From Roseateles oligotrophus (lineage in GTDB: Bacteria; Pseudomonadota; Gammaproteobacteria; Burkholderiales; Burkholderiaceae_C), in assembly GCF_014204525.1 (NCBI RefSeq), contig NZ_JACHLP010000001.1, positions 620,001-684,000 of the forward strand: DNA of 64,000 bases. Reading direction: 5' to 3'. A program made the position numbers and the translations under genes. Positions 12,514 to 15,221 of the stretch are shown in pieces. A model generated the notes under the pieces. That model had not been told where the DNA came from. It was given only the letters and a program-made list of their open reading frames with translations, and did not search any database. Each line of letters opens with the position of its first letter. Within the stretch, counting starts at the first letter, position 1.

Positions 12514-13635
12514 CTAAAACAACTCGCCCTGCTTCTGGCTGCCGACCGCAGCCTGGGGCGGCCGAAACTGGCCAAGATCCAAGGCGATACGTTCACGGTT
12601 CAGGCCCAGGCGTGCGCAGGCCTTGCGCAGGCGCTGGCGTACCAGCTCCGCCCACAGCCCCTCGCCCCTCATGCGGATGCCGAAGCGCGCGTCGTTATCG
12701 CGCCCGCCGCGCATATCGTGCAAGCGCGCCATGACGCGTGCGGCCCGCTCGGGCACATGCTGCTGCAGCCAGTCCTGGAACAAGGGGTTCACCTCCCAAG
12801 GCAGGCGCAGGGCGATGCTAAAGGCGCTGCGCGCGCCCAATGCCGCGGCGGCTTCCAGCACCCGCTCCAACTCGGGCTCGTTGAGAAAAGGGATCAGGGG
12901 CGAGACGCTGACCCCCACCGGCACACCGGCCTCGGCCAGGGCCTTCAAGACCTTCAAGCGGCTTTGCGGCGAGGCCGCCCGCGGCTCCAGGATGCGGGCC
13001 AGGCCCGCGTCCAACGTGGTGATGGAGACATAGACCGAGGCCAGGCCGTCCCGGCCCATGGGGCCAAGCAGGTCGAGATCGCGCAGGATGCCGGCCGATT
13101 TGGTGACGATGGAGAGCGGGTGGCGGCATTCATGCAGCAAGTCGATCAGGCCGCGGGTGATGCGCAGCTTGCGCTCGATCGGCTGATAGGCATCGGTGGC
13201 GGCCCCCAGGCAGATCGGCTGCGGGCGGTAGCCGGGCTTGCTCAGCTCGGCGCGCAGGCGCTCGGCGGCATTCGTCTTGGCGACGATGCGGGTCTCGAAG
13301 TCCAGCCCCGGCGAGAGTCCTAGATAGCTATGAGTGGGGCGCGCAAAGCAGTAAACACAACCATGCTCGCAGCCCCGATAGGGATTGATGGAACGGTCGA
13401 AGGGGATGTCGGGCGACTGGTTGCGGCTCAGGATGCGGCCGGCCTGTTCCTCGATGATCTGGGTGCGAGGCGGCAGGAGCTGCTCGTCCGCCGCCTGTTC
13501 CAGCGTGCCCCAGCCGTCGTCAAAAGCCTCGCGCTGATCGCGCTCGAAGCGGTGGGCAATCGCCCAGGCCGTGCCCCGGCCTTTCAAGGCCTGGGCGGGG
13601 ATGAGGAGATCGGGCTTGGGGCTTGCGGGCGGCAT
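12514..13635 (-). CDS. PA0069-family radical SAM protein (SplB-like, COG1533)
   Basis: A 373-aa radical S-adenosylmethionine enzyme of the family that includes PA0069 and Rv2578c, distantly related to spore photoproduct lyase. The [4Fe-4S]-SAM motif CEHGCVYC is at about residues 90-97, preceded by NPYRGC. A TIM-barrel core follows with LGAATDAYQPIERK and a late glycine-rich strand. The reaction is not established for this family; a nucleic-acid or repair role is suggested by the COG. The promoter overlaps a near-perfect LexA operator that ends exactly at the ATG, so the transcript is probably leaderless and DNA-damage inducible. It follows dnaB on the same strand. Confidence 0.9.
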   Translation of the reverse strand: MPPASPKPDLLIPAQALKGRGTAWAIAHRFERDQREAFDDGWGTLEQAADEQLLPPRTQIIEEQAGRILSRNQSPDIPFDRSINPYRGCEHGCVYCFARPTHSYLGLSPGLDFETRIVAKTNAAERLRAELSKPGYRPQPICLGAATDAYQPIERKLRITRGLIDLLHECRHPLSIVTKSAGILRDLDLLGPMGRDGLASVYVSITTLDAGLARILEPRAASPQSRLKVLKALAEAGVPVGVSVSPLIPFLNEPELERVLEAAAALGARSAFSIALRLPWEVNPLFQDWLQQHVPERAARVMARLHDMRGGRDNDARFGIRMRGEGLWAELVRQRLRKACARLGLNRERIALDLGQFRPPQAAVGSQKQGELF

Positions 13636-13672
13636 ACTGTTTATTTATACAGTGCGCCACCTTGTTTTTCAA
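13635..13672 (-). promoter_or_regulatory. SOS (LexA) box overlapping a sigma-70 promoter
   Basis: On the minus strand TTGAAA (13672-13667) and TATAAA (13649-13644) are separated by exactly 17 bases. The -10 lies inside CTGT-N8-ACAG (13654-13635 for the 20-bp site), which matches the enterobacterial LexA consensus at 18 of 20 positions. The ATG of the radical SAM gene immediately follows, so the transcription start falls at or next to the start codon. Confidence 0.85.
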
Positions 13673-15121
13673 TCAGTACTCGTCGCCAACCGGGCTGACG
13701 TAGTCGGGCGCCAGGTTCTCGAACTTGGTGTGCATGCGCTGGAAGAAGAGCTTGACCGTGCCCACAGGGCCGTTACGTTGCTTGGCGATGATGATCTCGG
13801 CCACGCCCGGTTCCTTGCATTCCTGCTTGGTGTAGTACTCGTCGCGGTAGATGAACATGATGATGTCGGCGTCCTGCTCGATGGCGCCGGACTCGCGCAG
13901 ATCGGACATCATGGGGCGCTTGTCGGGTCGCGTTTCGACCGAGCGGTTCAGCTGCGAGAGCGCGATCACCGGGCATTGCAGCTCCTTGGCCAGGGCCTTC
14001 AGGCCGCGCGAGATCTCGCCGATGACGGTGGCGCGGTTTTCCTCGTTGCCGCCGTTGCCGCTCATCAGCTGCAGGTAGTCGATCACGATCAGGCCTAACT
14101 GGCCGCAAATGCGGGCCTGGCGGCGCGCGCGCGCGCGCACCTCGCTGGGCGAAAGGCCGGGGCTCTCGTCGATGAAGATGCTGGCCTTGCCCAGCTTGTC
14201 CACCGCCTCGGACAAACGGCCCCATTCGTCATCGGCCAGGCGGCCGGTGCGCAGATGGCCTTGGTCGATGCGGCCGATGGAACCCACCATACGCAGGGCC
14301 AGCTGGGCCGCGCCCATTTCCATCGAGTAGATGACGACGGGCAGGCCCTCGTTGATGGCCACATTCTCGGCGATATTCACGGCGAAAGCCGTCTTGCCCA
14401 TGGAGGGGCGGGCCGCCAGCACGATCAGATCGCCCGGCTGCAGGCCTGCGGTCTGGCGGTCCAGGTCGTAGAAGCCGGTGCGCACGCCGGTGACGTCCTC
14501 GGCGCCGTTCTCGGCCAGCTCGTTGACGCGGTCGATCAGCGCGACGACCAGGTTGTCCATGCTCTGGAAACCCTGGCGGCTGCGCGAGCCCTCCTCGCCG
14601 ATGCGGAAGATCTTGCCCTCGGCCTCATCCAGGATCTGGGTCACGGCCCGGCCCTGCGGCGTCAGGGCCGCGGTGGCGATCTCGTCGCTGGCGGTGACCA
14701 GCTTGCGCAGGATGGCGCGCTCGCGCACGATCTCGGCATAACGGCGCAGATTGGCGGCGCTGGGCACGCTCTGCGCCAAGGCATTCAGATAGGCCAGGCC
14801 GCCGCAGTCCTCGGCCTTGCCGATGGAGGTCAGCTCCTCGAACACCGTCACCACATCGGCCGGCTTGCCGGCATTGATGAGCTTGCCGGTGGCGCTGAAG
14901 ATCTGCTTGTGCTCGAAGCGGTAGAAATCGCTCTCGGTCAGCAAGTCGCCCGCGCGGTCCCAGGCCGAGTTGTCGATCAGCAGACCGCCCAGCACGCTTT
15001 GCTCGGCCTCAATGGAATGCGGCGGCACGCGCAGGCGCGCGACATCGTCATCGCGGCGCTCGCCGCCGTTGGCGGAGCCGGGAGGGGTCGGCAGGGAAGG
15101 AGATGAAAAAGTTGCGCTCAT
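13673..15121 (-). CDS. dnaB: Replicative DNA helicase DnaB
   Basis: Hexameric 5'-3' helicase (482 aa from the ATG at 15121) that unwinds DNA at the replication fork. The N-terminal domain (about 25-130; PHSIEAEQSVLGGLLID) contacts DnaG. The RecA-like C-terminal domain has Walker A ARPSMGKTAFA, Walker B LIVIDYLQLM and the arginine-finger segment near the end (GPVGTVKLFF region). The ORF also permits a TTG three bases upstream. It follows the rpsF-priB-rpsR-rplI operon, as in many betaproteobacteria, and is separated from it by a strong terminator. An alternating GC run in the gene (about 14122-14136) only encodes RARARR. Confidence 0.97.
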   Translation of the reverse strand: MSATFSSPSLPTPPGSANGGERRDDDVARLRVPPHSIEAEQSVLGGLLIDNSAWDRAGDLLTESDFYRFEHKQIFSATGKLINAGKPADVVTVFEELTSIGKAEDCGGLAYLNALAQSVPSAANLRRYAEIVRERAILRKLVTASDEIATAALTPQGRAVTQILDEAEGKIFRIGEEGSRSRQGFQSMDNLVVALIDRVNELAENGAEDVTGVRTGFYDLDRQTAGLQPGDLIVLAARPSMGKTAFAVNIAENVAINEGLPVVIYSMEMGAAQLALRMVGSIGRIDQGHLRTGRLADDEWGRLSEAVDKLGKASIFIDESPGLSPSEVRARARRQARICGQLGLIVIDYLQLMSGNGGNEENRATVIGEISRGLKALAKELQCPVIALSQLNRSVETRPDKRPMMSDLRESGAIEQDADIIMFIYRDEYYTKQECKEPGVAEIIIAKQRNGPVGTVKLFFQRMHTKFENLAPDYVSPVGDEY

Positions 15122-15221
15122 CAATGAACTCGGAAACAGCGATTAGTTGCTGGGGCAGCCTGCGACAAAGGCTCCGGACCTCTCAGGGACAAGGCGGGGC
15201 GAGCGGATGCGATGAAAAGCA

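Follow-up and report, generated by a model that had tools for sequence, protein, structure and literature searches.

Probable LexA control of a PA0069-family radical SAM gene in Roseateles oligotrophus, with a predicted operator that reaches into the start codon

In a stretch of 64,000 nucleotides of the Roseateles oligotrophus genome (the window), a gene encoding a radical SAM enzyme of the PA0069 family is very probably repressed by LexA and induced by DNA damage, and on the sequence comparisons made here we put the probability of this reading at about 0.88. It starts from what the sequences contain, namely a LexA-type box, its spacing from the start codon, its conservation before orthologous genes, and a product whose protein family can be recognised.

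The box, the promoter-like hexamers and the ATG lie where an initial annotation of the window had placed them (Table 1). On the minus strand TTGAAA and TATAAA are separated by 17 bp, and the last base of the predicted operator is the A of the ATG at 13635-13633. The same annotation had counted 18 of 20 positions in agreement with LexA; compared with the 20-mer TACTGTATATATATACAGTA, which we take to be the E. coli LexA consensus, the operator CACTGTATAAATAAACAGTA has three mismatches and the correct figure is 17 of 20. Sites within three mismatches of this 20-mer did not occur in 100 shuffles of the window. The bare pattern CTGT-N8-ACAG was found once in the window against 0.71 expected, which is weak evidence by itself, and the case therefore rests on the relatives. 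A consensus promoter scanner reported no promoter between 12400 and 13900, and the -10-like TATAAA is without the T at position 6 that this scanner requires.

Table 1. Coordinates of the predicted features in the window and of the radical SAM gene pieces in Xanthomonadaceae genome G187
Feature	Position	Strand	Remarks
Predicted LexA operator CACTGTATAAATAAACAGTA	13654-13635	minus	3 mismatches to the 20-mer; conservation before orthologues
-35-like hexamer TTGAAA	13672-13667	minus	directly 3' of the dnaB stop codon; weakly conserved T/G at box -18, -16 in relatives
-10-like hexamer TATAAA	13649-13644	minus	inside the operator; absent from the consensus-scanner list
Predicted 5' leader, about 2 bases	13636-13637	minus	from hexamer spacing; start expected near 13637
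PA0069-family radical SAM gene	12514-13635	minus	product of 373 aa with CX3CX2C at residues 89-96; the A of the ATG is also the last base of the operator
dnaB (replicative helicase, identified by sequence)	13673-15124	minus	upstream neighbour, outside the regulated unit
G187 radical SAM pieces	C1:77866-78096, 78361-79416, 97653-97997

Orthologue matches were found in 108 of 150 sampled genomes of the window's own bacterial family, and the promoters of 90 of these, that of the window included, were read (30 loci and 60 stretches); the 18 left aside are the lowest-scoring matches, some of them truncated. The exact box is present in 70 of the 90 promoters against 2 of 900 shuffles, and a box matching at 7/8 or better in 83 against 85 of 900 shuffles. 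Because a 7/8 match arises in 9% of shuffles, the 13 promoters with such a match are weaker evidence. The other seven fall below 7/8, and one of them (L178) is cut by a contig end. In a separate set of 80 relatives, 36 promoters have the exact box, 12 a 7/8 box and 32 less than that, the last group being made up of 12 Xanthomonadaceae or Rhodanobacter, 6 alphaproteobacteria and 14 others, mostly betaproteobacteria, including Cupriavidus (L051) and Ralstonia (L057). When promoter segments of these 80 relatives were widened to 411 bp, they held 37 exact boxes, and the remaining 358,551 bp held 2. Five loci without CTGT-N8-ACAG (L032, L052, L079, L185 and L231) carry upstream a symmetric CTGG-N8-CCAG, which was not counted as a box and may reflect an altered LexA specificity or an operator of lower strength.

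Outside this family, damage-type control appears to be kept, in some lineages with another operator. Exact CTGT-N8-ACAG boxes were found in 23 of 24 Pseudomonadaceae promoters against 1 of 480 shuffles. Among the alphaproteobacteria 41 genomes have a match, and promoters were read in 30 of these; 25 of the 30 contain an exact GTTC-N7-GTTC (5 of 600 shuffles), with four more at one mismatch (49 of 600 shuffles). The Xanthomonadaceae, where 30 promoters were read and 36 genomes have a match, present a different picture: the exact CTGT-N8-ACAG is in none of the 30 and a 7/8 box in one, and 22 contain instead the motif GTCGCAG-N3-CTGMGAC-N10-TANSCT at up to 3 mismatches, which was found in 0 of 600 shuffles. 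Two other Xanthomonadaceae promoters have TTAGTA-N4-TACTAA (exact in L319, one mismatch in L302), presumably the Xanthomonas-type LexA site. In the Xanthomonadaceae genome G187 5' and 3' fragments of the radical SAM gene lie about 20 kb apart, and between them is a complete but diverged copy that has an exact TTAGTA-N4-TACTAA site in its promoter; this arrangement may reflect a mobile element.

The genome of R. oligotrophus encodes a single LexA match (TIGR00498, 220.8 bits), and CTGT-N8-ACAG occurs in it at 35 places, compared with 11 for the reversed control. Besides the window's own site we read 15 of these 35, on 14 stretches, together with the lexA locus. Exact boxes lie 39 bases before the first start of recA, 27 bases upstream of imuA and 72 bases upstream of an integron integrase (L102:1527-1542), and lexA has a 7/8 box at 40 bases. 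At the radical SAM gene the distance is 1. The remaining sites that were read adjoin two glyoxalase-type genes, an autoinducer synthase, a solute-binding protein, a Panacea-domain protein, a thermolysin-type peptidase and ORFs without a family, and since most of the 15 further sites are not beside a known SOS gene, not every site marks one. The two genes of the glyoxalase/bleomycin-resistance superfamily have an exact box 14 and 43 bases upstream (L097:1540-1555, L104:1513-1528), and the box CTGTATAAGTGTACAG lies between two divergent ORFs of no recognised family (L105:1510-1525). LexA control, as had been proposed for the window gene, gains strong support from the same box at the organism's own SOS genes and from the retention of the box, or of the lineage's LexA motif, before orthologues. 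The proposal was open to challenge if close relatives that keep the gene were missing the box; this was checked, and the proposal stands.

Since 0.71 occurrences of the bare pattern are expected per window, the box might be a chance AT-rich palindrome at a promoter on which LexA has no effect. This is very improbable given the 70 exact boxes in 90 family promoters against 2 in 900 shuffles, the 37 boxes in promoters against 2 in the flanks, and the alphaproteobacterial promoters, which carry their own lineage's LexA motif instead of the box. Less improbable, although still unlikely, is that dnaB and the radical SAM gene form an operon transcribed for the most part from the dnaB promoter, in which the box would be an internal switch or one of minor effect. 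Like the radical SAM gene, dnaB is read from the minus strand, and its stop codon (13675-13673) puts its end at 13673; a search for terminator-like sites between 12400 and 13900 gave none, and dnaB adjoins the gene in close relatives too. However, within flanks of 1.5-2 kb (shorter at some loci), just 25 of 110 loci contain a match to the window's DnaB, a count that includes the window itself, yet boxes persist without dnaB and the box keeps its position relative to the radical SAM ATG. The box therefore goes with the radical SAM gene and not with the neighbour, and a dnaB operon as the sole source of the transcript is made less likely.

The remaining alternative concerns the product. The initial annotation had assigned it to a PA0069/Rv2578c family, and the first half of this assignment holds: the protein scores 468 bits against PA0069 family NF033668 (cut-off 360), whereas its 213.8 bits against Rv2578c family NF038135 are below the cut-off of 430. 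It had also been grouped with spore photoproduct lyase, and an enzyme of that kind, repairing thymine photoproducts in a SAM-dependent manner as the COG and 'splB' labels would have it, is suggested by the match to radical SAM domain PF04055, by SOS control, and by papers that use the splB label in the text available of them (PMC3323433, PMC8565304). As a statement of function this grouping finds no support. The Pfam model for spore photoproduct lyase, PF20903, gave no hit across the genome at E <= 0.001 but did hit the Bacillus subtilis control, and a protein-level domain scan of the product gave no such lyase among matches at E <= 1. A profile search of PDB sequences listed none either, giving weak matches alone, the best being SkfB (E 0.0019). 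Spore photoproduct lyases have an extra conserved cysteine that serves as hydrogen donor. In an alignment of 41 sequences C89, C93 and C96 of the CX3CX2C motif are invariant, and the best columns of other cysteines reach 51% and 44%, so that none outside the cluster motif is well conserved. A true spore photoproduct lyase is therefore quite improbable, and the product is best described as a radical SAM enzyme under probable SOS control, for which the photolyase label is probably wrong. From its regulation alone, we infer a role that concerns damaged DNA or nucleotides.

Returning to the promoter of the LexA-repressed gene that we favour, the spacing of the hexamers agrees with the earlier expectation of almost no 5' leader, as it puts the start of the transcript at 13637, two bases before the ATG. 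In the 83 box-bearing promoters of the family, the ATG follows the box at +1 in 35, at +2 in 5 and at +3 in 1; the other offsets are mostly 7-39 with a few up to 96, and for 6 promoters no ATG was found. In 16 of these 35, the open frame leading to the aligned start of the protein contains no ATG, GTG or TTG other than the one at +1. Conservation of the -35 in relatives is weak. Taken together, the 35 show TAWATT at box columns 5-10 and TKG at positions -18 to -16, which we read as an alternative hexamer pair that would start the transcript on the A of the ATG itself. Since the +1 ATG occurs in 35 of 83 promoters, a leaderless transcript is the best prediction, and a leaderless design is strongly predicted as a feature of the window's clade. 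The suggestion that the message is probably leaderless is supported by this geometry. Orthologues of the Pseudomonadaceae have 14-22 bases between box and start, several with a GGAG-like sequence, and the leaderless layout is thus not universal. Among the 29 alphaproteobacterial promoters with GTTC-N7-GTTC at up to one mismatch, 15 have a TANNNT whose end lies 5-8 bases ahead of the start (6.6% when shuffled), again a leaderless geometry, and in 16 of the 22 motif-bearing Xanthomonadaceae promoters the first in-frame start is 6-7 bases past the motif.

The mechanism that we propose follows this layout. LexA bound at the operator would cover the -10, the base where transcription is expected to begin and the A of the ATG, and a single dimer might for that reason shut off initiation. 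After damage, RecA on single-stranded DNA would trigger the self-cleavage of LexA, transcription would begin 0-3 bases before the ATG, and the message would be translated without a Shine-Dalgarno leader. LexA binding, induction and leaderless translation are predictions of this reading, and the enzyme made may help the cell to cope with damaged DNA or nucleotides.

The motif of the Xanthomonadaceae was defined from radical SAM promoters and its presence there is therefore partly circular, but this does not hold for other sites. At up to 2 mismatches, 40 Xanthomonadaceae genomes contain 92 motif sites, spread over 37 of them, whereas the reversed control gives 10. When as many as 3 mismatches were allowed, 8 genomes gave 85 sites against 61 in the control, a count near enough to the control that single weak sites are uncertain, and we therefore rely on the sites with up to 2 mismatches. 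The next gene was read for 30 of the 92 sites and is the radical SAM gene in 12, recA in 4, dnaB in 3, and an arginyltransferase, a large helicase and a small membrane protein in 1 each, with 8 other or unclear; these genes were assigned by reading, with a family check for L243, L244 and L250, and for L253 the family check gave no match. In the 8-genome set the motif is found at 0-1 mismatches before recA (L126, L130) and radA (L121, L123), and at 2 mismatches before uvrA (L117), dnaB (L124) and nrdA (L129, L136). A family check confirms L126, L121, L117, L124 and L136, and L120, L122 and L133, whose reading gave shadow frames, were counted for no gene. The motif is thus common to the orthologue promoters of the Xanthomonadaceae and to DNA-repair genes, and its occurrence at recA, radA, dnaB, nrdA, the arginyltransferase and the radical SAM gene makes these a candidate LexA-independent damage regulon.

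A candidate for the regulator of this motif is a DriD-like WYL protein. WYL matches were present in all 10 Xanthomonadaceae genomes searched, and in nine of them the best match reads as the same kind of protein (the tenth, L266, was read in a wrong frame). Residues 5-308 of this protein align to the chains 9pfq_Q and 8tp8_A (E about 3e-11), listed as a WYL domain-containing protein and a DeoR-family regulator, which we take to be DriD, and it aligns more strongly to PafBC (E 3e-18). In five genomes the motif lies 1.2-2.4 kb from the WYL gene. Five stretches were read, four from these genomes and one from G196, which was outside the WYL search; in the four the motif is followed by a membrane-type protein of 96-111 aa (L378, L379, L380, L382), and in the stretch from G196, L381, by another protein. 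At L261 the motif also precedes a membrane-type protein, the sizes at this locus and at L378, L379, L380 and L382 ranging over 96-117 aa. By its description the membrane-type protein is reminiscent of DidA, the DriD-induced division inhibitor of Caulobacter. The WYL protein, which co-occurs with the motif and in some genomes is encoded near it, may bind it. The published DriD consensus, as given in the part of that work available to us, is ATACGAC-N7-GTCGTAT, which overlaps the -35 and keeps a constant spacing to the -10 (PMC12340889). The Caulobacter DriD regulon described in the same text resembles the Xanthomonadaceae case in its WYL activator (in the Xanthomonadaceae a candidate), in a palindrome over the -35 at a fixed -10 distance, and in a GTCG half-site; compared with GTCGCAG-N3-CTGCGAC of the Xanthomonadaceae, however, the half-sites are in inverted arrangement.

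SOS control of such genes is well supported and has already been predicted in print. Sanchez-Alberola et al. (2012; PMC3323433), in the portions accessible to us, predicted LexA control of 'splB' in alpha- and betaproteobacteria, the latter represented by species of Burkholderia, Ralstonia, Cupriavidus and Variovorax, called the gene a photolyase, and reported that the trait was not observed in gammaproteobacteria. This agrees with our case in that a radical SAM gene is predicted under LexA with the lineage's own motif. It differs in that the window gene is of the PA0069 family without a spore photoproduct lyase match, the published splB being compared here by its label, and in that we find the box in 23 of 24 Pseudomonadaceae promoters. 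From what is available of two further papers (PMC8565304, PMC7739468), SplB/COG1533 or a radical SAM protein is a recurrent SOS gene in Bacteroidetes and Gram-positives, as here but with other LexA motifs, the genes again being compared by label. The accessible text of other work links SplB-like proteins to SOS operons (PMC3765255) and includes a radical SAM gene in its LexA table for Streptomyces (PMC9380542). In a search that had most subscription papers outside its reach, no literature was found that ties PA0069 or Rv2578c directly to LexA, or that treats the leaderless layout or the Xanthomonadaceae motif. Presumably PA0069 belongs to the P. aeruginosa LexA regulon and Rv2578c to the mycobacterial one. 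The probably leaderless message and the distinct damage-type switch of the Xanthomonadaceae look new.

Perhaps these findings are parts of one history, a proposal that we hold with doubt and confidence in about equal measure. The PA0069 enzyme would be firmly tied to DNA damage, and its damage control would have been re-established on operators unrelated to one another: the LexA site of beta- and gammaproteobacteria, that of the alphaproteobacteria, a TTAGTA site of LexA type in a few Xanthomonadaceae and, in most members of that family, the non-LexA promoter GTCGCAG-N3-CTGMGAC-N10-TANSCT. The last would be driven by a DriD/PafBC-like WYL activator also running recA, radA, dnaB, nrdA and a small membrane protein, and the message would start at the ATG in the window's clade, in many alphaproteobacteria and in most Xanthomonadaceae. 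If true, this would mean an undescribed LexA-independent damage regulon and a leaderless design that has been selected.

For the biology of these bacteria, an enzyme that has stayed under damage-type control although its operator changed several times is very likely important in DNA damage, and with the photolyase label probably wrong, the question of its substrate becomes well posed for biochemistry. The promoter of the Xanthomonadaceae hints at a second damage regulon, one independent of LexA, and the operator fused with the start codon may offer a simple model for leaderless SOS transcripts.
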